Assembly (NCBI GenBank): GCA_963082975.1
Contig: OY720346.1
Coordinates: 77,492,767-77,556,766, forward strand
Length of the DNA stretch: 64,000 nt
Origin: Labia minor
Lineage: Eukaryota > Arthropoda > Insecta > Dermaptera > Spongiphoridae
Direction of reading: 5' to 3'
Shown here piece by piece: positions 22,798 to 50,788 of the stretch (its first letter is position 1; every line of letters begins with the position of its first letter). A model generated the notes under the pieces. That model searched no databases. It was not told the origin of the DNA and saw only the letters and a program-made list of their open reading frames with translations. The position numbers were made by a program, and so were the translations under genes.

Positions 22798-23297
22798 TCA
22801 ATTCTATAAGACGTTCACTTCAATAATAATTATCTATACATTGGGATTCAGACACAAAATGTGATTAATGTATTAAGAAATATTAAATTAGATTAGTATA
22901 TTAAATAATACAATAGAAAGTGAAATACTGAAATAGGCATGGCCAACTAACTCAACTATCAAACACTCTATCAATAAATAGAATGAAGGGGTAAGCATTT
23001 GGTTATCATTAACCTTAAAACGTTATTATAGCAAGAGTCAATTTCCATTAGTTAAATTAATGGACTGCATGTTGGGTAAAATTAAAATCTATTATTTTCA
23101 GTGTCTCGCGAGAATTGAATGGATTTAGTCGGATGGTGCGGCAACCTCATCGTCCCATTACCACCCACCATCAACCACATTCCAAATCAAACCAATGACT
23201 TTTACACAAATCGAAAACTCTCATCAATTATGAATTTAGAATTTGAAATTCATTCAAATAGTAATATCATCTTACACACACATATATATATATATAT
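22798..23297. other. Unique DNA, partly higher complexity
   Basis: 23095-23220 has mixed composition (for example GTGTCTCGCGAGAATTG) with no supported gene. The rest is A+T-rich and ends in a TA run. Confidence 0.35.
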
Positions 23298-23764
23298 TAT
23301 CTTATTATAATAGCAAAAATTGTATATATATATATTCATATTTTAAACTGCTAAAAGGATTTTTTTCAAATTCACACCATAGATAATTTTTATAAAGAAA
23401 AATCGATTTGTATTGGTTTCAGCCTTGAGAAAAATCATCTTTATTAGTTTTTTCTTAATTTAAAATACGAAATTTAAATGACGTCAGCAACTACACCAGA
23501 CAGCGATTCTTTAAATACATATTATTATAAATATAAATAAAATAAAATTACGAAATATATATTAGGTTATATTCACATGCTATACTTTTTTGTCTTTCAG
23601 TTCATTAATACCAACGTTTAAGGGCTGTATTTATGACTATTTTTTTTATTTATGTTTTTTAAAATATTTACAGGGCGGCTATGTGAACCAGGTACTCAAT
23701 ATTACCAGCCAATTCAGATAATAAGGAATAATTATTTTTAATGACCTCGGTGAACTACAGGTAC
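23298..23764 (+). repeat. Repeat family C, copy 3
   Basis: Runs from TTATCTTATTATAATAGC and GCAAAAATTGTATATATAT through CACACCATAGATAATTTTTA, TGTATTGGTTTCAGCC, GACGTCAGCAAC and CCAACGTTTAAGGGC, to a 3' part with GTGAACCAGGTAC. The last 80 bases are present in copy 4 but diverged. Confidence 0.65.
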
Positions 23765-31119: not shown

Positions 31120-31170
31120 TGGTGCCTTAACACTATTATCTAATGTTAATTTGTAAATATTATATATATA

Positions 31171-31407
31171 TGTAAAATATTTATATTTCCCTCTACCTAC
31201 TTATATCACCCTCTAGCGGACATCTAATTACTCATTTATTATTTATCTATTTATATGTGTTATCGACATTTAATTTACTCATTTTATTATTTATCCATTT
31301 GTATATATTTTATTTATAAACTTGTAAAATAATTTAAAAGAAATAAACTTGAAAATTAATTATTCCTTTTTGGATATAATAAATTCTGTTCTGTTATTTA
31401 TTTTACA
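31171..31407 (+). repeat. 5' LTR of element 1
   Basis: 237 bp, TGTAAAATATT to TTTTACA, identical by eye to 35587-35823. It contains a TATAAA-like site near 31315 and, at 31349-31361, TTGAAAATTAATT, the exact complement of the 13 bases that follow the LTR. Confidence 0.93.
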
Positions 31408-31420
31408 AATTAATTTTCAA
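31408..31420 (+). promoter_or_regulatory. Candidate self-primer binding site of element 1
   Basis: AATTAATTTTCAA, directly after the LTR, is the perfect reverse complement of LTR positions 31349-31361. It sits where a tRNA primer-binding site is expected, but there is no TGG start. Interpretation as a Tf1-like self-priming site is inference. The low sequence complexity weakens the case for this copy taken alone. Confidence 0.5.
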
Positions 31421-31427
31421 TTTTAAA

Positions 31428-32550
31428 ATGGAAAAAAAAAATTTTTATGTACATATTGTAAAAAAGGAAGAATATGAATATGAAATTTCTGGGTTGTCCG
31501 AAGACAAAGAACTATGGTATAGGTTACCGGAAGAATCAAGGAAAGTTCAAAATCATCCCATATTACTTTCAAACTCTATAATTAAGAGTTCAATGCTGGC
31601 TATAAAACCCATTCAAGGATATCGTAAAATTGGTATAAAATTAAATGAAGAACTTAAAGAAATTTATTTTGATGAAGGTGAAAATATTTCTTTTAATAAA
31701 ATTCCGTTAGAAGAAATTTCTAATGAAATCAACTTCAATCAAGAAGAAAAGAAAAATTTGCAAATGGAAATTGAAAAATTACAACTACAGCTAAGTGCAA
31801 CTCATTTTAATTTTTATGATATTGAAAAAAAATTAAATTTAGAAAAATTTAATAAAAATCAAGATCCAATAATTTGGATTCAAAAATTTGAAAATGAATG
31901 TTTTAGAAATAATATAGTGAATGAGACTAATATTATTGAAACGCTTCGATTTTATATACTAGGCATATCAAAAGACTGGTATGATACAAATTTAACAAAA
32001 TTTGGATTAAATAAATGGAATCTTTGGAAAGAATCTTTTCAAAATACATTTAGAGATATAAGTTGGATAAAAATAAAAAAAGCTTTTGATTTTAAATATT
32101 TAGGAGGGTCCATCATCGATTATGCAATTACAAAAGAAAAACTATGTATTGAAATAGAGAACGGTGGAACAATACAGTCTAGGATTCATATGATAGTGAT
32201 GGGACTCCCTGAAAAATTTCAAAATAGACTAGATTATGAAAAAATAAAAACAATTGAAACATTGTTTTCCGAATTAAAGAAAATTGAATATTTATCAAAT
32301 GAATTTAATAAAATTAAAACGAATTATAATAAAAATTTTAATAAAAACGAAAATATAGATAAAAATAATACAAGTGATACAAAAAAAAAAAAAAAAATTT
32401 TCGTGCTCAATTTGCGAATCTTTTAGTTGGCCAAACCGTTATCACTCTGAAAATATATGTAGAAATAAAAATTTAAAGATAAAACAAGAAAGTAATTTAA
32501 ATGAAAAAGAAAATTTTAAAATAAATGAAAACTATGATTCTTTAAACTAA
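31428..32550 (+). pseudogene. gag: gag region of LTR element 1
   Basis: Encodes a Gag-like structural protein resembling that of element 2. Shared features are the YVDEG/YFDEG motif (YFDEGENISFN here), a middle region with KDWYD (RDWYE in element 2) and an F.Y..GS..DY motif typical of retrotransposon capsid domains. A lysine- and asparagine-rich tail follows. Part of a broken element and treated as a fossil. Confidence 0.8.
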
Positions 32551-32569
32551 AAAGCCCGGAAGAATTTAA

Positions 32570-35547
32570 TCCACTTATAAAAATAAATGTATTAATAGAC
32601 AATAAATATAATATAAAAGCTATTTATGATAGTGGGTCGAATGTAAGCTTACTAAATAAAAAACTTTTAAATATTTTAAAGTTAAATTTAGAAAAAAACA
32701 AAACTATATTTAGAACACTTAGTGGTAAAAATTTCTGTCAAGGCCGGGCAAATATTAGTTTGAAAATCGGAGAGATTACGGAAAATCTAAATACTTATGT
32801 AATTAAAAATAACAAATTTTCTTATGATTTACTGTTGGGACTCGACGCAATAAAGAAATTCAGACTCATACAAAATGAAAATTTAAAAATTTTTCAGAAA
32901 ATAGATGATGAGAATATTATAAAAATAAAACCAACAAATATAAAAAATAATGTTAACGATTTTCAAATAAATATGAATGAATTGGATTATATAGAAGATA
33001 AGAATAAAATTATAGAATTAAAAACGATAATAGAAAATTTCAAAAATATATTTGCTAAAAATAAATTTGATGTTGGAAAAGTAAAATGTAAAGAAGGTGA
33101 GATTAAATTAATTAAAGAGGAATATATTAATTCACGACCTTATAAATGCAATATAATAGACGAGAGAGAAATACAAAATCAGATAAAAAAATTATTAGAG
33201 GCAAAGTTAATTGAGGAATCAGATGGAGGTTTTTCATCACCAGTTACACTTGCATTCAAAAAAGAGGATGGTCGGAGGACAAGACTTTGTATTGATTACC
33301 GAAGATTAAATAAATTGATAATACCAGAATGTTTTCCATTTCCAACTATAAATGATGTTATTGAAAAGATACCTAATTGTAAATATTTTTCGATAATTGA
33401 TATAAATTCGGCTTTTTGGAACATTCCTTTAAGTGAAAATGATCGAGAGAAAACCGCATTTATTACAAAATTTGGGAAATTTAGGTTTAAAGTATTACCA
33501 TATGGTCTTAAAAATGCTCCAGCGATTTTTCAAAGGACATTATCTAATATTTTAAGAAGGAATGGTTTAGACGAATTCTCTATAAATTATATCGATGATA
33601 TCTTAATATTTTCTAAAACATGGGAGGAACATATGAAACATATAAAAAAAACTTTTGAAATACTAGACGAAGTGGGTTTCAAACTAAAATATGAAAAATG
33701 TAAATTTGCTTCTAATTCAGTGAAATATCTTGGACATTTCATACAAGAAAATAAAATATCACCAGCAATTGAAAATTTGGCTGCTATTAGAAAACTAAAC
33801 AAACCAACAGATAAATCTGGTGTAAGGAGTATTTTAGGATCAATAAATTTTTTTTTAAAATATATTGAAAACAGTACAGAAAAATTTGAACCACTTCATC
33901 GATTATTAAAAAAAAATGTAAAATTTGAATGGACAAAAGAATGTGATGAAAGTTTTAATTTAATTAAAGAATATTTATGTTCCTCACCCATTTTAGCAAT
34001 ATATGATACAGACAAAGAAATAATAATTGAAACAGATGCTAGTTTAAAAGGAATTGGTGCAGTATTGAAACAACCACAAATTAATGGTATGTTGCATCCA
34101 GTTGCTTATTTTTCTAGGAAATTATCAGAAAAAGAAAAGAAAATGGATATTATTCACCTGGAGTGAAAAGCAATTAAAGAAGCAATAAAATATTGGCAAT
34201 TTTATGTCATGGGCCGAGAATTTAGAGTTTGTACGGACCATAAACCCTTAGAAAATTTAAGAACAAAGAGCAGAACAGATGAAATATTGGGAGATTTAGT
34301 CAATTATCTATCTCAATTTAATTTTAAAATCATTTATAAAAAAGGGAAAGACAATATTTTGGCAGACCTTTTATCAAGACAACCAATATTAGAATACTTT
34401 GAAAATGAAGACGAAATTAAAGTAGTAAATTTAATAGAAATAAAAAAAATAATTGAAGATCAAAAAGAAAATTTTAAAGAAATAGAAAATGATAAAAAAA
34501 CAGAAAAACGAAATAATATTTTTTTTAAAAATCTAAATAACAGAGCAAGGATATATATTTCAATTGACTTTGGTATAAAATTAATAAAGCTCGTTCATGA
34601 ATATTATGGTCATATAGGAAATGCTCAATTAAAAAGGAAAATAAGACCCTATTATTATTTTAAAAATATGGATCGACTAATTAATTCATTTTGTGAAAAT
34701 TGCAAGATTTGTAAAGAAAACAAAACTCGTAAAGGAAGAACAATTGGATTAATGTCGAAATTAGGGCCTCCAAGTAAACCCTATGAAATTATGTCCATTG
34801 ATACGGTAGGAGGATTCGCCGGGAACAGATCACCGAAAAGATTTATGCACATTTTAGTGGATCACTTTAGCAGATACGCTTGGATCTCCACTTCGACAGG
34901 TCAAGACGCTAAAGAATTTATCAAATTAATAGATCCAGTTACAAAAGGAAAGGAAATTAAAATGATTTTGACAGACCAATACTCTGGATTTAATTCTCAA
35001 GAATTTAAAAACTATTTAAATAAAAAAAATATACAACTTGTATTTACATCAATAGATTGTCCCCAATCTAATGGCCTAAATGAGAGACTAAACCAAACTC
35101 TTGTTAATAGAATAAGATGCAAAATAAATAGTGGTGATAATAGAGCGTGGTCTAAAATCGCAGAAGATTGTACAAAGGAATACAACAAGACAATTCATAG
35201 TTCAACAAAATTTGAACCTGAATATTTACTTTTGGGTATAAAATCAACAATTTCTCCTATCACTTTTGGGGAAGATAATCTGGAACAGGCCAGGAAAGAA
35301 GCTTTTCAAAATTCCGAAAAAAGTTTCCATACTAATAAAGAAAGGATAGATAAAAATAGAAAAAAAAAAAGAATTTAAAATAGGCGAGATGGTATACATC
35401 GAGAATGGGAATAAAATAAACCGTAGGAAAACGGATAAAGTAAGGATGGGCCCATTCAAAATATCAAAAAGAATTTCCTCATCCATATACGAGGTTGACT
35501 GTGGAAAAAAAAAAAATTATCAAACTGTTTCCACTGCAGTAAATTGA
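32570..35547 (+). pseudogene. pol: pol region of LTR element 1
   Basis: Parts recognisable in order: retropepsin motif YDSGSN (about 32625); reverse transcriptase with LCIDYRRLNK and the catalytic YIDD (about 33590); RNase H with TDAS and TDHKPL (about 34035 and 34235); integrase with an HHCC zinc-binding region (about 34590-34720), a core with SIDTVGG, and the closing GLNERLN (about 35075). A GPFKI motif of the GPY/F module follows near 35450. Family order and motifs identify Ty3/gypsy. The region is broken and treated as a fossil. Confidence 0.88.
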
Positions 35548-35586
35548 CACCTTTTTCTTCTGAAGAAAAAGCCTAAGGGGGTAAGA

Positions 35587-35823
35587 TGTAAAATATTTAT
35601 ATTTCCCTCTACCTACTTATATCACCCTCTAGCGGACATCTAATTACTCATTTATTATTTATCTATTTATATGTGTTATCGACATTTAATTTACTCATTT
35701 TATTATTTATCCATTTGTATATATTTTATTTATAAACTTGTAAAATAATTTAAAAGAAATAAACTTGAAAATTAATTATTCCTTTTTGGATATAATAAAT
35801 TCTGTTCTGTTATTTATTTTACA
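35587..35823 (+). repeat. 3' LTR of element 1
   Basis: Identical by eye to 31171-31407. Preceded by the polypurine-like AAGGGGGTAAGA. Followed by a TA run shared with the left flank, so the short target duplication (TATA) cannot be sized exactly. Confidence 0.93.
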
Positions 35824-35834
35824 TATATATATAC

Positions 35835-35871
35835 ATCTTATATTATTATACTAGCAAAAATTGTATATATA
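35835..35871 (+). repeat. Repeat family C, copy 5, left piece
   Basis: CTTATATTATTATACTAGC and GCAAAAATTGTATATAT are the family C 5' end. The copy resumes at 40769 after LTR element 2; the two halves join to match 41844-41900. Confidence 0.75.
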
Positions 35872-36198
35872 TGTAAATTTGAAATTGCCACTAGAGTGTA
35901 GAGCGCATCACAATCGCATCTCACTAATGGAAAGCGACTGTCCCGCCCATCAGAGAACTGCATCAAGAACGCCAAGACAGCAGCAAGATTTAAATAATTA
36001 TCAAATATCTAATCTAATAATTGTATTGTATAATATATTAAAAAACCTGTGAGATTGGACCTGAAAATTCGATTTCTATTTGTTTTTAGGTACCAATAAC
36101 ATAATTCAATAGTCTTGTATCATATTAAAATTATAATAAATTCTATTTGTTTTTAGAAACTCGAATTTCATTTACCAAGCCATCTTGTTAACCTTACA
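35872..36198 (+). repeat. 5' LTR of element 2
   Basis: 327 bp, identical by eye to 40442-40768. A TATA-like TATAATATATTA lies at 36029-36040. GAAAATTCGATTT at 36063-36075, 23-34 bases below it, is exactly complementary to the bases after the LTR. CTATTTGTTTTTAG occurs twice (about 36077 and 36147). Confidence 0.95.
36029..36040 (+). promoter_or_regulatory. TATA-like promoter element in LTR 2
   Basis: TATAATATATTA lies 23-34 bases upstream of 36063, where the putative self-primer sequence begins. That is the distance expected between a TATA box and a transcription start. The start itself is inferred. Confidence 0.4.
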
Positions 36199-36210
36199 AA
36201 TCGAATTTTC
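36198..36210 (+). promoter_or_regulatory. Candidate self-primer binding site of element 2
   Basis: AAATCGAATTTTC, beginning with the last base of the LTR, is the perfect reverse complement of LTR positions 36063-36075. Compare the Tf1/sushi mechanism, where the 5' end of the transcript folds back as primer. Mechanism inferred; complementarity seen. Confidence 0.6.
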
Positions 36211-36228: not shown

Positions 36229-37320
36229 ATGGATACTTGGTTTACTCTGCATATAAGAAGAGAACAGATTGATGGAAAAACGGTATGCTCATTTCACTCT
36301 ATTGGTTTTTTATACAATAATTCAAATTATATCTTCCCCCAAAAATTTCGTCATGAGAAATTTCATAAAGAGCTAATGAAGTTAGGGCCCATAAAGGCAG
36401 CTTGCAAAGGGATGGCTAGCTTAGGACATTATAGAAATGCTAAGGTAGCATTAGATGATGAAATAAAAAAATTATATGTTGATGAAGGGGGTAATTTTAT
36501 TTTTAATGAGGAGATGTTGGAAGAAAAAAATGATATGTATGATGTATTAGATATATCTCAAAAGACGAATATAAATAGTCAGCTCGATATACTAAGGGAT
36601 ATAGAAAATAAATTCAATATCACAGTATTTGTGGGTAAAAATGAAGATGTAGAGGAATGGATTAGTGCTTTTCAAAATGAATGTGATAGATTCCAAATAA
36701 CTGACGCTGCCACCAAGTTACGAGCGGTGAAATATTTCTTGAAAGGTAGTGCAAGGGATTGGTATGAACTATCCATAAAGAAAAATACATTGGATTGGCT
36801 AGGCTGGATTGAGTCTTTTAAATTAGCTTTTAAAAAAAGAGGCTGGTCACACCTAAGGCATGCTTTTAAATTTGAATACATGAAAGGGTCCTTAGTAGAT
36901 TATTGCATTAAAAAAGAAAGTCTGTTGTTACAAGCCCAGCCAAATATTCAATTAGAAACGGTTATTAATCTAATTGTCATTGGATTGCCAATCAATATCC
37001 AGGATAACTTAGATAAAATGGATATTAAATCAACGGAACACTTGATTGGTTTACTACAAAAGTATGACTCGGATAATATATTAATAGGAAAATTAAATAA
37101 AATAAAATTTAATGATGATAATCGAGCTGAGGGAATATCAAATCCAATAAATAAATTTAAAAAAGAAAAAAAGCCATGTTTTAAATGTGAGAGGCTAGGA
37201 AAACCAAATAGATTTCATCCAGTAGAAATATGTTTTAACAAAAATAAATATGATAATTTAGCGAAAAATTTATTAAATGAAAATATGAATACTGATGAAA
37301 TAGATGATATAAAAAACTAG
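36229..37320 (+). CDS. gag: Gag protein of LTR element 2
   Basis: 363 residues, starting at the first ATG, about 30 bases after the LTR. It would form the capsid and package the element RNA. Visible parts: an N-terminal region; a YVDEGGNFIFN motif (also in element 1); a capsid-like middle with RDWYE and HAFKFEYMKGSLVDY; and near the C-terminus one zinc knuckle of the form C-x2-C-x9-H-x4-C (C317, C320, H330, C335), with a spacing longer than the classical CCHC. The pol frame overlaps its end in the -1 register, the arrangement Ty3/gypsy elements commonly use with programmed frameshifting. Confidence 0.9.
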   Translation: MDTWFTLHIRREQIDGKTVCSFHSIGFLYNNSNYIFPQKFRHEKFHKELMKLGPIKAACKGMASLGHYRNAKVALDDEIKKLYVDEGGNFIFNEEMLEEKNDMYDVLDISQKTNINSQLDILRDIENKFNITVFVGKNEDVEEWISAFQNECDRFQITDAATKLRAVKYFLKGSARDWYELSIKKNTLDWLGWIESFKLAFKKRGWSHLRHAFKFEYMKGSLVDYCIKKESLLLQAQPNIQLETVINLIVIGLPINIQDNLDKMDIKSTEHLIGLLQKYDSDNILIGKLNKIKFNDDNRAEGISNPINKFKKEKKPCFKCERLGKPNRFHPVEICFNKNKYDNLAKNLLNENMNTDEIDDIKN

Positions 37321-37445: not shown

Positions 37446-40406
37446 ATGAAGGAAGAAATTTTAAAAAAAGATAATAATAAAATTTTGTTCAAAACTCTTA
37501 GTGGTATAAATTGCACTACTGGGCAAATCAAATTGAAATTAAAAATAGGTAATATTGAAGACAGTCTAAATGTTTTTATAATAAAAGAAAATGATTTCTC
37601 ATTTGACTTGATATTGGGCCTAGATGCTATTAAAAAATTTAAGCTTAGTCAAAATAAAAATTTGCAAATTTTACAGGAAAAGGATGATAAAAAAATAATA
37701 TTGAACAAAATAGGAAGATCAAATATGGATAGATGTAAAGTTGATAGAAAGGAAAATAACGTAAATATTAATACATATATAAATGAATATATTAACTTGA
37801 AAGATTATGAAGATTTTTTGAATCATTTAGACACACATCAAAAAAAAGAGATAACAAGGTTGCTAGAGCAAAATAGATCTATTTTTGCTAAGAATAAGTA
37901 CGATGTCGGTATTATAAAAAATGCTCAAGCTAATATAAGACTGAAAGAATATAAATATGTTTACAAAAAACCTTATAGATGCTCAATGGAAGATCAGAGA
38001 GAGATAGATGATCAAATAGTGAAACTTTTAAAAGCAAAATTAATTGAGGAATCGAGTTCTCCTTTCGCAGCTCCTGTCACAATGGTTTTTAAAAAGGATG
38101 AAAATAAAAGAAGTCGACTGTGCATAGACTATAGAGGTATAAATAATATCTTGACCCCTGAAAGCCATCCTTTTCCGCGGATTGAGGATATACTGATAAA
38201 AGCAGGAAACTGTGCCTGGTTCTCGGCTTTTGATGTAAATTCTGCTTTCTGGTCTATCCCGGTTAGAGAAAAAGATAGGGAAAAGCTGGGATTCGTAACA
38301 CAAAACGGCCATTATCAGTGGAAAGTTCTTCCGTTCGGTCTCAAAGTATCGAGTAGTATCTTCCAAAGAATTCTCGCGAATGCAATTAGAAGAAATAAAT
38401 TAAGTAATTTCTGTATAAACTATATAGATGACGTATTAGTTTTTTCAAAAACTTTTAATGAACATTTGAAACATATTGAATTGCTGATTAATGTTATCAA
38501 AGAAGAAGGCTTTAAATTAAAATTGTCAAAATGTAACATAGCAAAAAATTCAATCAAATATTTAGGACATGTTATTGAAAAAAATAAAGTTAAACCTTAC
38601 AAGGATAATTTGATCTCTATAAGAAATTTTGAACAACCAAAAAATAAAAAAAATATCAGGCAGTTTTTAGGCAAAATTAACTTTTACCATAACTACATTG
38701 AAAACTCGGTTCAGTTACTAGAACCATTACATAACTTGTTAAGGAAAGATATAAAGTTTCTATGGGATGATAAGTGTCAGACAGCCTTCGAGAAAGTTAA
38801 AAAACTTCTATGCTCTGCTCCAATTTTACAGATATTTGACGCAGATAAAGATATCTATATTTATACAGATGCGTCAGGAGAAGGCTTGGGTGCCATCTTA
38901 AAGCAGCCAGACAAAGAAGGAAACCTACATCCAGTAGCATACTTCTCAAAAAAATTGAATCCATCTCAAAAGAAAAGAAAAGCAATTTTCCTGGAATGTC
39001 TGGCTATCAAAGAAGCAATTCGTTTCTGGCAGCATTGGCTGATAGGTAGACAATTTACAGTAGTGACAGACCATAAACCCTTAGAAAGTTTAAAAGTAAA
39101 AGCCAGACCGGATGAACCACTGGGAGACATGATATACTATTTATCTCAATATTCATTTAAGATAATATATGCACCTGGGAAAGAAAATTTGGAGGCAGAT
39201 TCATTGTCAAGAAACCCTGTTTTGGAGAGTTTTGACAATGAAGAAGATATATTGAAAGTAGTTAACATGGTATCTATACAAGACATTATAAATGATCAAA
39301 CTCTAAATGAAAGTGAAATAGAACTATCAAGAAATATATATAAAAGAGGGAACATTTATTTTAAAAAAAATAATAATAATGCAAGAATATATGTTTCGAA
39401 ATTATTTGGGATAGAGCTTATACAGAATGTACATAATTACTATGGACACATAGGGAGTAAACATTTGATTAATAAGATAAGACCGCACTACTATTTTAAG
39501 AATATGGATGCCATAATAGAAGATTTCTGTAATAAATGTAAAGCTTGCATTGAAAATAAAACAAGAAGAAAAAGAATAATAGGAAAATTATCTCAATTAG
39601 GTCCAGCCACCAGACCTTACGAAATTATGTCTATTGACACAATAGGGGGCTTTAATGGAAATAATTCAAATAAAAAATATATGCACATATTAATTGATCA
39701 CTTCTCGAGATATATTTTTGCATCAACATCGAAAACACAATCAGCTAGAGATTTCATTAATCTGTTAGAACCAATAGTCAAAAAAAATGATATAATTACG
39801 TTGCTGGGAGATCAGTATGCAGGCATAAATTCTAATGAATTTAAGAATTATTTAAATAATAAAAATATTGAAATGATATTCACATGCGTTGATTGTCCTG
39901 AATCAAATGGACTTAATGAACGTGTTAATCAAACATTGACAAACAGGTTAAGGATTAAAAGAAATGATGAAAAAAATAAAAATAAGTCATGGGCAGTCTT
40001 AGCAGAAGAATGTGTTAAGGAATACAACAAAACAACACACACAACAACAAGATATCCACCTTCATATTTATTATTAGGAGAAAAATCTGAAATTATACCA
40101 GAGTGTTTACAAGAGATAGAAAATTTAGAGGTAGACAGAAAAAAGGCGTTAGAATTCTCAATAGAAAAATTCAAAATAAATGAGGAGAGAATAAATAAGA
40201 AGCGAAAGGATAATTGTTTTAAAGAAGGGGACCTAGTATATATAGAGACAGGGAATAAGCTAAATAGAAGAAAACTGGATAAAATAAGAAGAGGCCCGTT
40301 TAAAATAATAAAGCGCATTTCAAATTCAGTTTATCAAGTAAACCAGACTAAGAAAGGTAAACAGTTCACATTGTTTCACGTAAACAAATTATTACCCTTT
40401 AAATAA
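37446..40406 (+). CDS. pol: Pol polyprotein of LTR element 2
   Basis: 986 residues from the first ATG. The frame is open further upstream, overlapping the end of gag, and carries the retropepsin motif YDSGSN near 37400. Domains, counting from this ATG: reverse transcriptase with LCIDYRGINN and catalytic YIDD at 326-329; RNase H with D475, E517 and D542; integrase with an H-x4-H / C-x2-C zinc-binding region, catalytic D731, D789 and E825 (D,D-35-E); and a C-terminal GPFKII motif of the GPY/F module. RT-RNase H-integrase order is diagnostic of Ty3/gypsy. All catalytic residues are present. Confidence 0.95.
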   Translation: MKEEILKKDNNKILFKTLSGINCTTGQIKLKLKIGNIEDSLNVFIIKENDFSFDLILGLDAIKKFKLSQNKNLQILQEKDDKKIILNKIGRSNMDRCKVDRKENNVNINTYINEYINLKDYEDFLNHLDTHQKKEITRLLEQNRSIFAKNKYDVGIIKNAQANIRLKEYKYVYKKPYRCSMEDQREIDDQIVKLLKAKLIEESSSPFAAPVTMVFKKDENKRSRLCIDYRGINNILTPESHPFPRIEDILIKAGNCAWFSAFDVNSAFWSIPVREKDREKLGFVTQNGHYQWKVLPFGLKVSSSIFQRILANAIRRNKLSNFCINYIDDVLVFSKTFNEHLKHIELLINVIKEEGFKLKLSKCNIAKNSIKYLGHVIEKNKVKPYKDNLISIRNFEQPKNKKNIRQFLGKINFYHNYIENSVQLLEPLHNLLRKDIKFLWDDKCQTAFEKVKKLLCSAPILQIFDADKDIYIYTDASGEGLGAILKQPDKEGNLHPVAYFSKKLNPSQKKRKAIFLECLAIKEAIRFWQHWLIGRQFTVVTDHKPLESLKVKARPDEPLGDMIYYLSQYSFKIIYAPGKENLEADSLSRNPVLESFDNEEDILKVVNMVSIQDIINDQTLNESEIELSRNIYKRGNIYFKKNNNNARIYVSKLFGIELIQNVHNYYGHIGSKHLINKIRPHYYFKNMDAIIEDFCNKCKACIENKTRRKRIIGKLSQLGPATRPYEIMSIDTIGGFNGNNSNKKYMHILIDHFSRYIFASTSKTQSARDFINLLEPIVKKNDIITLLGDQYAGINSNEFKNYLNNKNIEMIFTCVDCPESNGLNERVNQTLTNRLRIKRNDEKNKNKSWAVLAEECVKEYNKTTHTTTRYPPSYLLLGEKSEIIPECLQEIENLEVDRKKALEFSIEKFKINEERINKKRKDNCFKEGDLVYIETGNKLNRRKLDKIRRGPFKIIKRISNSVYQVNQTKKGKQFTLFHVNKLLPFK

Positions 40407-40441: not shown

Positions 40442-40768
40442 TGTAAATTTGAAATTGCCACTAGAGTGTAGAGCGCATCACAATCGCATCTCACTAATGG
40501 AAAGCGACTGTCCCGCCCATCAGAGAACTGCATCAAGAACGCCAAGACAGCAGCAAGATTTAAATAATTATCAAATATCTAATCTAATAATTGTATTGTA
40601 TAATATATTAAAAAACCTGTGAGATTGGACCTGAAAATTCGATTTCTATTTGTTTTTAGGTACCAATAACATAATTCAATAGTCTTGTATCATATTAAAA
40701 TTATAATAAATTCTATTTGTTTTTAGAAACTCGAATTTCATTTACCAAGCCATCTTGTTAACCTTACA
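40442..40768 (+). repeat. 3' LTR of element 2
   Basis: Identical by eye to 35872-36198. Preceded directly by a polypurine tract with eight G. Confidence 0.95.
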
Positions 40769-41190
40769 TATATATTAATATTTGTATTTTTGAAATATTA
40801 AAGCTGCTGGAATATTTTTTTTGAAATTTACACCATAGGTAATATTTATAAAGAAAAATCAGTCTGTATTGGTTTCAGCCTCGGGAAAAATCATCTTTGT
40901 TAGTTTTTTCTTAATTTAAAATAAAAAATTTAATAATAAAAAAATGGCGTCGGGCAAAGCCAGACAACTCTTCCTTAAATATAAAATATTATAAATAAAA
41001 TTAAATTAAAAATATTTATTTTAATAATATTTTGTAAGCAAATTACGAAATATATATTATGTTATATCCACAGGCAATACTTTTCTGTCTTTCAGTGCAT
41101 TAATACTTACATTCAAGGGCTGAATGTTTTATGACTATTTTTTTTTAATTTATATTCTTTTAAATTATTTGAAATTGTTTCTAATTATAC
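40769..41190 (+). repeat. Repeat family C, copy 5, right piece
   Basis: Continues from 35871: TATTAATATTTG, GAAATATTAAAGCTGCTGG, CACCATAGGTAATATTTA and TCTGTATTGGTTTCAGCC. It is nearly identical to 41883-42290. The 3' end is replaced by unrelated A+T-rich DNA. Confidence 0.75.
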
Positions 41191-41843
41191 TTTATTTATA
41201 TATTATTGAATCACAATTCTTACAATTGCTAATACCTATACTTTTGTATCGAAATTCCCTAAACATTTTTATTTAAAGTGGTAAATTTATTATAAAAATA
41301 TTTATATATTGTTTCAATCTCTCTTTTATTTTTTCTGGCAAGACTGACGAAGAAGTGAATTGATATCTAATGCCATTCCACTCTTCGTTCAGGAGTTTAC
41401 CTACTTTTAATTATTATGAAATTTAATGTTTTTTTTTTTTTTTAAAAAAACAAAGTGTAATAAATGCTAAGTTTATTTTGATTAAAGAGTTAAAAAGTTT
41501 CTATACACAATTTAGATATTAAATGAAGTTGTAAAGTTTTGTTATTTATTATACATAAAAATTATAATTTTAAAGAAAACATATGTACTAATTTCGAAGA
41601 AAAGTTTTTATGCAAGTATAATTCATTACACAAAATATAATAAACTAAAACGTACTACAATATAATTAAAGTTTTGTTTCTATTCAGGACTTTTGTCACC
41701 TAATGTGATCTCTAGCTATGATATGATAAGATAATAATAATACAAGTACATATTTTATTTACTTTACTTTACAGTAGTTTAAACTTATAAAGTGATATTT
41801 TAAAGTAAATTATTTTTCTTTTGAAAATATTATATATTTTCAT
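41191..41843. other. A+T-rich unique DNA
   Basis: Nothing recognisable between two family C copies. Confidence 0.4.
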
Positions 41844-42396
41844 CTTATCTTATCTTATACTAGCAAAAATTGTATATATATATATTAATATTTGTATTTT
41901 TGAAATATTAAAGCTGCTGGAATATTTTTTTTGAAATTCACACCATAGATAATATTTATAAAGAAAAATCGGTCTGTATTGGTTTCAGCCTCGGGAAAAA
42001 TCATCTTTGTTAGTTTTTTTTTAATTTAAAATAAAAAATTTAATAATAAAAAATGGCGCCGGGCAACGCCAGGCAGCGCTTCATTAAATACAAAATATTA
42101 TAAATAAAATAAAATTAAAAATATTTATTATAATAATATTTTCTAATCAAATTACGAAATATATATTATGTTATATCCACAGGCCATACTTTTCTGTTTT
42201 TCAGTGCATTAATACGTTTTATGACTATTTTTTTTTTAAATTTATATTCTTTTAAATTATTTGAAATTGTTTCATATATATATTTTGTATTTTATTTATT
42301 TTAAATAATAATCTTAATCTTAAATATTCATAGTTCATAAGGAATAATAATTTTTTTAAAGTACCGAGACGCAGCTTGGTGAACCAGGTACTATAA
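41844..42396 (+). repeat. Repeat family C, copy 6, full length
   Basis: Reference copy. The 5' end is a CTTAT run, ACTAGCAAAAATTG and TA run. The middle has CACACCATAGATAATATTTA, GGTCTGTATTGGTTTCAGCC and GGCAACGCCAGGCAGCGC. The 3' end is GTACCGAGACGCAGCTTGG with GAACCAGGTAC, in which CTTGGT-GA-ACCAGG can fold back. The central part from TGTATTGGTTT to TTATTTGAAATTGTTTC is shared with repeat B. Confidence 0.7.
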
Positions 42397-42521: not shown

Positions 42522-43418
42522 CGAGGTAGGGTCAAAAAGTTCGCGGAATGGTCGCTTATAGTCAAGTATTTCTTAGCTGAAAGGGAAATTTTTGTTTGTA
42601 AGGTTGGCATAACTGGTAGTGAATGTGCTTTTGAGGTTAGCAGGCAGTTGTAGTTGGTTCCGTGCGTTCGGTGTTTAATATTGTAGATCGTAGTTTCTTT
42701 CTTTCGTCGGATTGTGCAATGTCGTCATTAGGCAATATTAAATTCTGTGTGTTGCTGGAGAAATCACCCTCGGAGACTCTTGAGATGCTAAAAAAAGCAT
42801 ACGGAAATTCTGCGATGAAGAAAACAGCAGTTTACGAGTGGCATAAGCGTTTTCGCGACGGTCGCACAACAATTGATGATGACGTTCGGACTGGGCGGCC
42901 TTCCACTTCCACTACAGACGACAATGTTGAGCGCGTTCGACAAATTGTGCGTGCGGACAAACGAACAAACATGAATAATATTGCCTCTGAAGTTGGTATT
43001 TCACATGGGAGTGTTCACAGCATTCTTCATAATGACTTGAACATGCATCGTGTTTGCTTGCACTTTGTTCCAAAAATGTTATCCCCTGAGCAAAAGGAAA
43101 TGAGAGTGACCCTGTCCAGGGACTTGATTGAAATCCCGATCTCGCACCACCAGATTTCTACCTGTTTCCAAGGTTAAAAATGGCATTGAAGGGACATCGT
43201 TTTGCTGATTCGTCAGAGGTGATTGAAAATGCGACGGAGCGGCTGAAGGAACTTTCAAAAAACGGCTTTCAAGAGTGTTTCCAACAATTATATGAACGGT
43301 GGAATAAATGTGTAGATGCAGGAGGAGAGTATTTTGAAGGGAAATAATGTAAGAATGTTATAAATATTTTTAATAGATTTTTAATAACCAATTCCGCGAA
43401 CTTTTTGACCCTACCTCG
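42522..43418 (+). mobile_element. Mariner transposon, internally deleted
   Basis: An 897-bp element with 28-bp inverted ends starting CGAGGTAGGGTC, flanked by the TA target duplication (42520-42521 and 43419-43420). Intact mariners are about 1.3 kb, so about 0.35-0.4 kb of the centre is missing. The ends look undamaged, so it could be moved by a transposase supplied elsewhere. Of the mariner elements here it is the least decayed. Confidence 0.9.
42719..43345 (+). pseudogene. Mariner transposase with central deletion
   Basis: The likely start is MSSLGNIKF at 42719 (the frame is open 19 codons further up). The N-terminal half has both helix-turn-helix motifs (AVYEWHKRFRDGR; ASEVGISHGSVHSILH), which bind the TIRs. 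After LSRDLIE the sequence jumps to the block around the third catalytic residue, read in another frame as LAPPDFYLFPRLK. It then runs to the normal C-terminus (WNKCVDAGGEYFEGK, stop at 43345). The first two catalytic aspartates (of the D,D34D triad) lie in the missing part, so it is inactive. Confidence 0.88.
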
Positions 43419-46778: not shown

Positions 46779-47546
46779 ATGAGTGAATTTAAGGAAGTTA
46801 TGAAGAAGTTTGATGATTTTAAAGATGAGATCAAGAATTTGATTCGAGAAGAATTGAGGAATCTCAATATTTCGTCGGCATTGGAGGAGATGAACGAGAG
46901 ATGCGAAGATTTGAAGAGAGAGAATGAACAACTAAGAAATGAATTGTCACGCCAGGGAGAAGAGCTGGAAACCTACAGAAGACAAAATAATTTAATCATC
47001 CACGGAGTGCCCTGCAAAGAAAATGAAGATTATGAAATGCTAGAAGAGTCGGTCTTAGACATTTGTAATAAAATTATGTCTGTGGCTACAACCGGCAGTG
47101 ATATCAATTATGTAAAAAGAATTGGTAAGCGAAACTCCGAGAAAAAACCAATTGTGCTATCGCTTGTCTCCAAAAATCATAAGATGAAGATTTTACGCAA
47201 TACAAGAAAATTGAAGAATAGTAAAATATATATATTTGAAGATTTGGGGAAGAAGAAGCAAGGGCAACGGAGGGAACTGATAAAGTTAAGGGATAAATAC
47301 AGGGAAGAGGGAAAAATTTGCAAATTGAAAAATGATGGTCTTATTGTGGATGGCCGTTATGTTCATTATGATCTGCTTTTTAAAGATCCGCAGAAGACGA
47401 GGACGTCGACAAAGCCTCAAAGAGAAGAGGAAACAAATGATGAGGATAGATCGAAAAAGAGGAAGAGGAATGTGTGTACTAAAACCAAACCCACATCTAT
47501 AGATAATTTTTTTCGTCCCCGAAGCAACTCCGGACCAACACATTAG
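46779..47546 (+). CDS. LINE ORF1 protein (RNA-binding, coiled coil)
   Basis: 255 residues. An N-terminal coiled coil (about 1-75, for example ERCEDLKRENEQLRNEL) is followed by an RRM-like region (NNLIIHGVP at about 70-80; KKPIVLSLVSKNHKMKIL at about 120-140) and a C-terminal part (about 165-205) similar in layout to L1 ORF1p (transposase_22 fold). The tail is basic. It is expected to trimerise through the coiled coil, bind the LINE RNA and form the retrotransposition particle. The start is the first ATG after a 148-base leader. Its last 44 bases overlap the open frame of ORF2. No zinc knuckles were seen. Confidence 0.85.
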   Translation: MSEFKEVMKKFDDFKDEIKNLIREELRNLNISSALEEMNERCEDLKRENEQLRNELSRQGEELETYRRQNNLIIHGVPCKENEDYEMLEESVLDICNKIMSVATTGSDINYVKRIGKRNSEKKPIVLSLVSKNHKMKILRNTRKLKNSKIYIFEDLGKKKQGQRRELIKLRDKYREEGKICKLKNDGLIVDGRYVHYDLLFKDPQKTRTSTKPQREEETNDEDRSKKRKRNVCTKTKPTSIDNFFRPRSNSGPTH

Positions 47547-50500
47547 GCGGATAAAACGGCAGGAAAATGAAAGTGAGTTCCTCGACATAATTTCTTATAA
47601 TATTGCCGGGATAAAAAGTAAAATAAACAATTTTGAGTTTTTAAATTTTATTAGAGGTTTTAAAATTTTTGTATTGATAGAGACATATGTTGAGGATGTT
47701 AAAACATTTGCCAGAATCCAAAATCTGTTTCCAAATCATACTCTTAGATTCATATCTGCTTCTAGAATAAAAAAGAGAGGGAGAGCGAGTGGGGGTATGA
47801 TTTATGGCGTAAATAATCAATTAAGAAGCATGGTAAAGATGATTGAAATTGATAGTGTCATAATCTTTGAAATGAATATTCACTCAACCAAACATTACCT
47901 GGCGCCTGTGTATTTGAATTGTAACAATTGGATTGACGACTATGATTCCCTGTATAAGTTTATGGAACGAATGCAAAATGAGCAAATTATTTTAATAGGA
48001 GATTTTAATGGAAGGGTGTCGGACTGGCAGGAGATACCAGTGGGAGATATCGGATTGAGAAGTTTAAAAAAATATAGACTTTCGAGGGATAATGTAATTA
48101 ATTCAAATGGCAGAATATTATTAAAACTTTTTAATGATTTTAATTTAGCAATTTTAAATGGACGTATTGAGGGGGATCAGATGGGTGAACACACATTCAT
48201 TGGGGCAATGGGTAACTCAGTAATAGATTTATGTGCTGTATCATTGGATGCTGCTCAATATATTCATTCCCTCGAAATACTCCCAAAACATTTTTCAGAT
48301 CATCTCCCGTTAGCTCTGAAATATAAATATAATTATTATGAGACAACAGACTCCATTGCGCTGCTTCCTAAATTGAAATGGATTGATGGGAGAAGGGATA
48401 ATTTTAATAAGGAGGTAGATAGGGCATTGAGATCGAGCCCAATGATGGGGGATTCGTCAATGGAGACAGATCACTTAACAAATTTATTATATGAAATAGC
48501 AATTAAAAATAATATGACTTACGATAATAATAAAAATATATTGAAATTCGAAAATAGGTGGTATGATTACGAATGTTATAAATTAAGAAAAAAATTATAT
48601 ATAGCATTGAACCTTCTTAGAAAGAATAATTCTAAAATATTTAAATCGAATTATATTAAAATTAGAAATGAATATAAAAATAAATGCAAAATAAAGAAAC
48701 AGCTATATTTAGATAATCTAATAAATGAATTTAAAAAAGTAAATAACAGTAAAGAATTTTGGTGTCTGGTACGTCATTTTAAAAATAAAAAATTTAATAC
48801 TGATAAAAATATCCCGCCGCTTGCATGGTTGAATTATTTTAAGAAGTTGTTAAACCCTTCGCTTTCGGGTTCAAGTATAAGCTATGCGGAGCCATTTATA
48901 ATTGTTGAATATTTAGATAGCCCTTTTTTGATGTCTGAATTGGTAAGGGTGTTGAATAAAGCTAAAAGTAATAAAGCTCCTGGTCTAGACAGAATTACTT
49001 ACGAATTTTATAAAAATGTTTCAAATCTTTTTTTGGAGAAACTCCTTACTTGTTTTAATAAGATTTTTGAAAATGGAATTGTTCCAAGGGGTTTCAAAGA
49101 TTCAATCATATTTCCAATACATAAAAAGGGACTGACTAGTGAAGTATCGAATTATAGGGGGATCTCTTTTAATAATGTTGTGAGTAAATTGTTCACAGGG
49201 TTATTGTTAAATAGAATCACTAGCTGGATAAATAACATGAATATAATAGGGGAATTTCAAGCAGGATTCCGAAGTAATTATTCAACTGTGGACAATATCA
49301 ACACCCTTATTAACATGATTAACCTCCGGTTAAATAAAAAAAGACAAAAAGTATTCGCATTCTTCGTGGATTTCTCCTCCGCATTCGATCGAGTTGATAG
49401 GCAGGCCCTGTATTACAAATTACTGAATTTGGGATTGTCTACCAAGGTAGTCAAAATAATAAAAAGTCTTTATACAGACACGCAGGCTAGTGTGTGGTGT
49501 GGAGAAGAGCTAACTAAAGCATTCGAAACAACTATGGGAGTGAAACAGGGATGTTTGCTAAGTCCGACGCTATTCTCATTGTTTGTGAATGATATAGAAG
49601 ATTTTATGGAGGGGGGGGGTGACCATTGGTGAAACTAAAATTAAGATGCTGGCCTATGCGGATGACATTGTAATTTTAGCCCCGGAAAAGATAGTGCTAC
49701 AAAGGATGATAAGCACATTAGAGAATTATTGCAAGATGTGGAATTTGATAGTAAATTTGGAAAAATCAAAGATAGTAGTATTTAGAAATGGTGGGCGTCC
49801 TGGGGCGGGAGAAAATTGGTATTTTGGAGGAAAAAAGGTGGAAATAGTTAATAAATATAAGTATCTTGGAATCACAGTATCGTCGGGGTTAGCAATGGGA
49901 TGGCACTTTAAGGAGAAAAAGGAGAGGGCCATATTTGCTCTTAATTCCTTTAATAGAATACTATTAAATAATAATATAAACTGGAATTCTAAATTGAAGG
50001 TCTTTAACTCAGTGTCACGATCAATAATATGCTATGGTGCCCAGGTGTGGGGATATAAGAGTTATGATGAGGTTGAAGTACCTTTCAAATTCTTCGTCAA
50101 AAAATGTTTTAATCTGCCAAGGAATACCCCCGATTACATATTATACTTGGAAACAAACCTCTCACCAACTTATATATACACTTTAAAATTACACTTGGAT
50201 TACATAATAAAATGTTTAAAAATGACGCATAATAGATATCCATTTGTAGTAATAAAAGAAATTATAAACAATAAAATTTCATGGTTTAAGGACTGGCAAA
50301 ATTTGTGTGAAAAGTGTAACCTTAACATTAGTGATATCCTTAATGGTAAAATCAGTTCCAAATTTATAGTATATGAAATGAAAAAAATAATAGTAAGTGA
50401 TCTAATGGAGAGAGTGAACAATAGTGAAAGACATACAATTTATAAACAACTAGAAAGATTTGAATATGAAAATGGAGAGATGAGTGTAAATAATAGGAGT

Positions 50501-50788
50501 TGGCTGATGAAAATTCGAGGAGAATTGCTATATTTAAATAAATATACTTTCAGAAGCCAAGTCAAAATATGCTCATTATGCAATCTTTTGGAGGAGGAGG
50601 ATACTTTCCATTTCATTGCGAGATGCCCCATCTTGAAAGAATTTAGGATGAGGGCACTCGGCAGGGAAGTGCTTACCTTTGAGGAGTTCAAAGAGTACCT
50701 TGAAGGGGGGGACTGGCAGAGTCTTGTCAAATATAGTAGGGAGGCCTGGAAATACAGGTACTCCCTAATAAGAGAATTTAATTTTTGA
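47503..50788 (+). pseudogene. LINE ORF2 (APE endonuclease + reverse transcriptase), one frame change
   Basis: The open frame begins inside ORF1 (+1 register) with no ATG before the endonuclease. Translation may therefore use a non-AUG start, reinitiation or frameshift. Endonuclease motifs: ISYNIAG (47590), GDFNGR (48000), SDHLPL (48297). RT: NKAPGLD (48970), HKKG, FVDFSSAFD (49362), GVKQGCLLSPTLF (49540), then AYADDIVIL (about 49653) in the next frame. The change falls in nine consecutive G (49611-49619); eight would keep one frame. The C-terminus has a CSLC...HFIARC zinc finger (50570-50625) and ends at 50788. About 1,080 residues in total; all catalytic motifs are present. Confidence 0.9.

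Follow-up and report, generated by a model that had tools for sequence, protein, structure and literature searches.

Two Ty3/gypsy-type long terminal repeat (LTR) retrotransposons of the dermapteran insect Labia minor, here called element 1 and element 2, probably belong to a lineage without a detected chromodomain that combines self-priming by its own RNA with a "split R", an arrangement in which an intron is kept through reverse transcription. Both elements lie in a stretch of 64,000 nucleotides (nt) from assembly GCA_963082975.1 (contig OY720346.1, positions 77,492,767 to 77,556,766), which we call the window; positions given without a contig name are those of the window, and all features of the two elements are on its plus strand. 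What sequence comparison establishes is that the primer-binding site (PBS) at the end of the LTR has its pairing partner inside that LTR, and that the two covary over 11 families of elements. Beyond this, we are rather confident that these elements prime themselves, that the RNA leader is spliced in the ten families with an intron-like insert, and that a short direct repeat (DR) at the borders of the putative intron acts as the terminal repeat R, its second copy (DR2) being rewritten from its first (DR1) in every cycle. The split R does not appear in the first-pass annotation of the window and is new in this analysis.

Pairing of the primer-binding site with its own LTR

Element 1 has a 5' LTR of 237 nt (31171-31407, TGTAAAAT...ATTTTACA), and its PBS of 13 nt (31408-31420) starts at the base after this LTR and is the exact reverse complement of LTR positions 31349-31361, the proposed self-primer segment, just as the first-pass annotation had reported. 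For element 2 the same annotation gave 13 bases as well. The match is indeed exact, but the 13th base, 36198, is the last base of the 327-nt 5' LTR (35872-36198), so the PBS comes to 12 nt (36199-36210), directly after the LTR and exactly complementary to a self-primer segment at 36063-36074. Under a dinucleotide model, a match of this length that begins at the LTR end is expected with a probability of about 2.4e-4 for element 1 and 1.5e-4 for element 2. Exchanged between the elements, the PBS of element 1 matches the LTR of element 2 over only 5 nt, and the PBS of element 2 matches the LTR of element 1 over only 3 nt. For both leaders, the RNA fold of minimum energy contains the primer-PBS helix; the total fold energies are ordinary (element 1, z -0.85, with 36 of 200 shuffles folding as well; element 2, z -1.01, with 33 of 200).

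Relatives were collected from the assembly (604 Mb) by a search with the element 1 LTR, which returned 41 rows, and by three protein searches with reverse transcriptase (RT), in which the best 102 of 2057, 111 of 1885 and 111 of 1843 candidates were scored. A readable LTR-PBS junction was found in 11 families: element 1, element 2, F75, F73, F71, F69, G75, G74a, G71, G68 and G74b, where the number gives RT identity to element 2 (F) or to element 1 (G). Pairwise RT identities seen among them range from 53 to 75%. A second LTR confirms the LTR end in element 1, element 2 and the four F families, and in G75, G74a, G71 and G68 it was set from the ending TTACA or TTTACA of relatives. Pieces with no usable junction were excluded, namely L073 and L074 of 16 upstream pieces, L096, L099 and L101 of 13, and L104, L105, L107 and L108 of the 14 F71 pieces; so were L095, whose primer region lies outside the piece, and the F71 pieces L110 and L113, which stop within DR1.

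In each of the 11 families the PBS is complementary to its own LTR over 9-13 nt. With pair 1 at the junction, Watson-Crick pairing holds in all families for pairs 1-9, in ten for pair 10, in nine for pair 11 and in six for pair 12; at least two pair types occur at pairs 3, 4, 5, 7, 9, 10, 11 and 12, and the changes are two-sided. The covariation that had been suspected from the two elements of the window holds over the whole set: the own matches sum to 128 nt, whereas re-dealing the PBSs among the families gives 72.9 nt on average and never more than 117 (100,000 trials). This comparison is to be read with the relatedness of the 11 families in mind, since they are not independent draws. Leaving out G74b, the own sum is 115 against a maximum of 108. 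In the six families with an LTR end confirmed by a second LTR it is 66 against a maximum of 65; this narrow margin comes from exchanging the PBSs of element 2 and F75, which are alike in all but one of their first 12 bases.

The site is also stable within the element 1 family. Of 38 LTR reads fetched, 36 include a PBS, and 34 of these copies keep 12-13 nt of complementarity, L005, where unrelated sequence follows 12 nt of PBS, and the rearranged L033 being counted among them. Among the first 30 LTR loci, that of the window included, the 13-nt site is identical in 27, L005 has 12 nt, the PBS of L029 is changed on one side only, and L002 is a 3' LTR without a PBS; eight further loci have the identical pair in six cases, a one-sided change of the primer segment in L031, and a 3' LTR without a PBS in L037. 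Another locus, L040 (C10:37843000-37848900), consists of this LTR, 12 nt of PBS and then sequence mostly unlike element 1; it is possibly a non-autonomous or truncated copy.

Direct repeats, a putative intron and fold-back insertions

In ten of the 11 families the LTR has the order U3 - primer - DR1 - GTA...AG(DR2) - U5, where DR1 reaches from the primer 3' end to AG|GT and DR2 ends in AG. The DR is 9-15 nt long and the insert 62-89 nt. In element 2, DR1, the proposed R, is at 36075-36089, directly after the primer segment; the proposed 67-nt GT-AG intron is at 36090-36156, and DR2, the second R copy (36142-36156), ends at the proposed splice acceptor. The 3' LTR (40442-40768) repeats the same primer, DR1, intron and DR2. 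The LTR of element 1 has no GT-AG insert, and its primer-PBS loop is 46 nt.

Within young elements of these ten families DR1 and DR2 are identical in 27 of 27 complete reads (both LTRs of element 2 being counted), and five reads cut inside DR2 agree with DR1 over the 7-12 nt seen. Between families the DR is different in every case, no two families sharing one; F71 has four DR versions, with DR1 and DR2 alike in each as far as read. One read of each family was used to measure the borders of the repeat. In four families the maximal repeat starts right at the primer 3' end (0 nt before it), in five 1 nt and in one 3 nt before it, and never after it; it ends in AG in nine families and one base later in F75. 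This is as expected if the true border is the primer end and the extra bases are chance matches in A/T-rich flanks. The donor reads AG|GTA in 26 of 27 reads and AG|ATA in L091. It was not found blind, because AG followed by GTA or ATA was what our script looked for; the right border of the repeat was measured independently of that search. In its borders (AG|GT...AG) and in its length the insert has what a spliceosomal intron would have.

Based on these observations, we propose the following cycle. The RNA would begin at or near the primer segment and fold back onto the PBS; it would then be cut behind the 3' end of this segment, which would be extended as the primer of the minus strand. That the DR starts at the primer 3' end is an indirect sign that the segment may serve as the cut 5' end of the RNA. 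Splicing of the 5' leader would leave primer-DR1-U5-PBS. With the primer cut off, such a leader begins at DR1, so the last part of minus strong-stop DNA would be complementary to DR1. At its 3' end the RNA would carry DR2 near the poly(A) site, minus strong-stop DNA would land on this DR2 near the polyadenylated end, and synthesis would continue through the intron, DR1, primer and U3. By such a transfer the LTR would be rebuilt with its intron, while DR2 would become a copy of DR1; R would be under a built-in concerted evolution. This model would explain where the DR starts and ends, why it is identical within young copies and why it changes from one copy to another. Intronless LTRs would arise if the strong-stop DNA landed on DR1 instead, or if the 3' LTR were spliced, and element 1 looks like such an intronless line. 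The first-pass annotation placed the start of the element 2 transcript below a TATA-like run. This run is indeed present upstream of 36063 (by eye), though it does not fix the RNA start.

The family F75 has LTRs of both kinds. Among the places scored (40 of 92 candidates), 18 are without the intron, 20 have it and two are fold-backs. Four elements have two intronless LTRs (paired by position), and in L075 the LTR lacks precisely the intron. One F75 locus (G000, C2:20720561-20721097) has two R-U5 stretches about 360 bases apart and is possibly a tandem or an LTR-PBS-LTR copy. The poly(A) signal AATAAA lies inside the insert in all five F-type families (element 2, at 36135-36140, F75, F73, F71 and F69). 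In the five G-type families it lies within about 20 nt after DR2, G71 having it at both positions. We considered whether removal of a poly(A) signal from the 5' end is the general purpose of the splicing, and dropped the idea on account of these G-type signals, which sit just after DR2.

A record of the primer pairing was found in five fold-back insertions of two families, L003, L121 and L122 (element 1 family) and L123 and L124 (F75). In all five the inverted arm starts exactly at the primer 3' end. L003 is a palindrome of 426 bp, in which LTR positions 191 to 1 stand inverted immediately after a whole LTR, position 191 being the 3' end of the primer segment; its arms are identical at 191 of 191 positions, its loop is 44 nt, and TATT stands on both sides. 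A search with the L003 junction, in which the best 40 of 152 candidates were scored, gave L121 and L122 with the same junction. The right arm of L121 is complete (98.4%) and most of its left U3 is lost, while L122 has lost parts of both sides. In L123 and L124 the inverted arm runs from LTR position 181, which is the primer 3' end in F75; the arms are 181/181 identical in L123 and 90.7% identical in L124, and the left U3 arm is gone from both, with other or rearranged sequence in its place.

The simplest origin of these palindromes would be plus strong-stop DNA, the 3' end of which, a copy of the primer, folds back to pair with the primer segment on that strand and is then extended to the end of U3. 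Since the arm includes all of U3, we infer that the template was DNA and not an RNA starting at the primer. The fold-backs show that the PBS copy paired with the LTR segment on a DNA strand during reverse transcription; they do not in themselves show priming by RNA. A related accident in the element 1 family is L039 (495-2057), where LTR and PBS are followed by pol inverted from 33777 downward (about 1 kb) and then by the 3' end and 3' LTR; the joint has 9 nt in common with the PBS.

Weighing the proposed cycle

Self-priming had been put forward already in the first-pass annotation, and both the complementarity in all families and the fold-backs argue in its favor. A number of observations nevertheless weigh against the reading that we prefer, or against parts of it. 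The RNA start, the splicing and the RNA 3' end are all deduced from the DNA. The LTR end of G74b was set by the PBS match itself. The PBSs of close families are nearly exchangeable, and for the LTR of G75 the match is 12 nt long with the PBSs of G71 and G74b and 11 nt with its own. Among five older relatives of element 2 (88-93% identical) the DR copies, compared by eye, are equal in two and differ by 1-2 nt in three, differences which we read as decay. In the G-type families AATAAA follows DR2, so splicing would leave it in place. Helices of the kind that flank the "pretzel" of Tf1 do not go beyond chance here, as 35 and 71 of 300 shuffles give duplexes at least as stable.

Other such points would rather favor the view that the elements prime themselves without splicing the leader, in which case selection, gene conversion or repeated recombination would keep the DRs alike and GT-AG would be incidental. 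The intron is dispensable, as element 1 and many F75 LTRs manage without it, and folding does not favor splicing: the primer-PBS helix has a probability above 0.5 in eight of ten families unspliced and in seven spliced, with spliced-leader values as low as 0.09 in F73, 0.22 in F71 and 0.02 in F69, and in several families it folds equally well or better in the unspliced form. Still, we consider this view improbable. On the side of splicing, the loops predicted for spliced leaders, at 38-70 nt, bracket the 46 nt of the intronless element 1. Copying DR1 into DR2 at constant length should require a template in which DR1 is joined to U5, whereas an unspliced template should lead, on transfer, to duplication or loss of the insert, and GT stands at the donor in nearly all reads.

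The three remaining explanations deserve, in our opinion, much less credit. Priming by tRNA is the usual mode in Ty3/gypsy elements, and here too the primer could be a tRNA of the host, acting with its 3' end or with an internal stretch, while the LTR match is a coincidence. Our check spanned just 15 tRNA genes of five isotypes; within it, no match starting at the first PBS base exceeds 4 nt (6 nt with a shifted start), as against 9-13 nt to the own LTR, so that the better-matching tRNA which the first-pass annotation had thought of was looked for and none was seen in this sample. Since moreover TGG is absent from the first eight PBS bases in all 11 families, and the PBSs covary with their LTRs and are used in the same pairing by the fold-backs, a tRNA primer is scarcely believable. 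Somewhat less far-fetched, and still very unlikely, is a structural signal, with priming by something else: in retroviruses, hairpins near the RNA 5' end serve packaging, dimerisation and RNA stability. Yet the site that pairs is at the end of the LTR, the place from which minus-strand synthesis has to set out, and after cutting of the primer the remaining template would start with the DR. Lastly, a short insert flanked by direct repeats may recall the target-site duplication of one old insertion into the LTR, spliced by chance or tolerated. Such a fixed duplication would drift apart, whereas the DR is family-specific in length and sequence and its copies are nevertheless equal inside young elements; we give this origin hardly any weight. 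Hence we maintain self-priming with a spliced leader as the most plausible interpretation.

A side observation concerns some F-type LTRs (L085, L076, and 36157-36170 in the window), where the sequence after DR2 resembles the primer, e.g. AAATCGATTT in F69 (by eye); it may compete for pairing in a spliced leader.

Classification, related systems and genomic setting

Both elements have paired LTRs with TG..CA ends and carry RT and RNase H before integrase, which is the Ty3/gypsy arrangement. Their RTs are 53% identical, hence they are well-separated families. Element 1 has a gag-like open reading frame (ORF) at 31428-32426, assigned by position and without a Pfam match, a pol region (RT, RNase H, integrase) at 32760-35378 in two listed ORFs with the frame interrupted, and a 3' LTR at 35587-35823. 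In element 2 the gag-like ORF (36229-37320) is likewise assigned by position; a Pfam search matched no Gag family, nothing scoring below E 0.2, and an unusual knuckle-like motif, CX2CX9HX4C, is seen by eye at the C-terminus. Its pol ORF (37446-40406) encodes RT, RNase H and integrase, no chromodomain being detected at the integrase C-terminus at E up to 5 (HMMER, filters permitting), and a purine tract stands just before the 3' LTR (by eye). Ty3 ranks first among the solved structures matched (7q5b, E 2.5e-97). No relative was found in viral_contigs and genome_contigs with an alignment of the two RTs, or in phages with the RT of element 2, and Rfam and tRNA scans of the window gave no matches.

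The order RT-RNase H-integrase is shared with Ty3 of Saccharomyces and other tRNA-primed Ty3/gypsy elements, from which all our families differ in the missing TGG. Some LTR elements and retroviruses have splice donors in or near R, i.e. near the RNA 5' end; we know of no LTR element with an intron between two R copies that is restored by strand transfer. Introns normally vanish on passage through RNA, and a split R, if true, would carry one through each cycle; in the five F-type families the splicing, if true, would in addition free the RNA 5' end of the poly(A) signal. Fold-back insertions, as a DNA-level record of primer pairing, can be searched for in any assembly.

According to the portions of the literature consulted, self-priming has been demonstrated for Tf1 and inferred for its Tf1/sushi relatives (PMC4600332, PMC10085805, PMC5006619, PMC6934838, PMC3601003, PMC4558846). 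The term also occurs in papers about plant chromoviruses (PMC2864245, PMC6317226). As in the chromoviruses of that group (Tf1, Tf2, Tj1, Tosmo1-3), the PBS after the 5' LTR is complementary to an LTR segment, which is there taken as the RNA 5' end (PMC4600332, PMC10085805). Unlike them, element 2 has no detected chromodomain, so it would work like Tf1 without being a typical Tf1/sushi member, and the same portions of that literature mention no intron between two R copies such as the ten families have here. Skipper of dictyostelids also has a PBS without TGG, and unconventional priming has been proposed for it; there, as far as the consulted part of that paper goes, a polypyrimidine stretch takes the place of the PBS and no complementary segment was detected in the LTR (PMC5006619), unlike the clear LTR partner found here. 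While self-priming is tied to chromoviruses in the literature consulted, here it fits a lineage of many families, the tested member of which, element 2, is the one without a detected chromodomain. Among the titles and abstract openings listed by our searches, with few subscription journals covered, there was no report of self-priming outside chromoviruses or in arthropods and insects, and none of an intron or a split R in LTRs. The finding is thus likely to be novel.

Both elements are located within (TA)n stretches (31160-31171, 35824-35832, 35860-35872, 40769-40780). TATA forms the four bases preceding the LTR in 24 of 30 LTR loci of the element 1 family, which suggests an integration preference; L003 alone has a clear target duplication of 4 bp (TATT). 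A repeat with CAAAAATTGTATATATA occurs at 23282-23343, 35823-35884 and 41832-41893, and both elements are inserted beside or within one copy of it. Further along the window are a fragment of a mariner-like transposase (42662-43177) and a non-LTR element of the endonuclease/RT type with three listed ORFs (46779-50788), both of them, like this repeat, recognized by eye.

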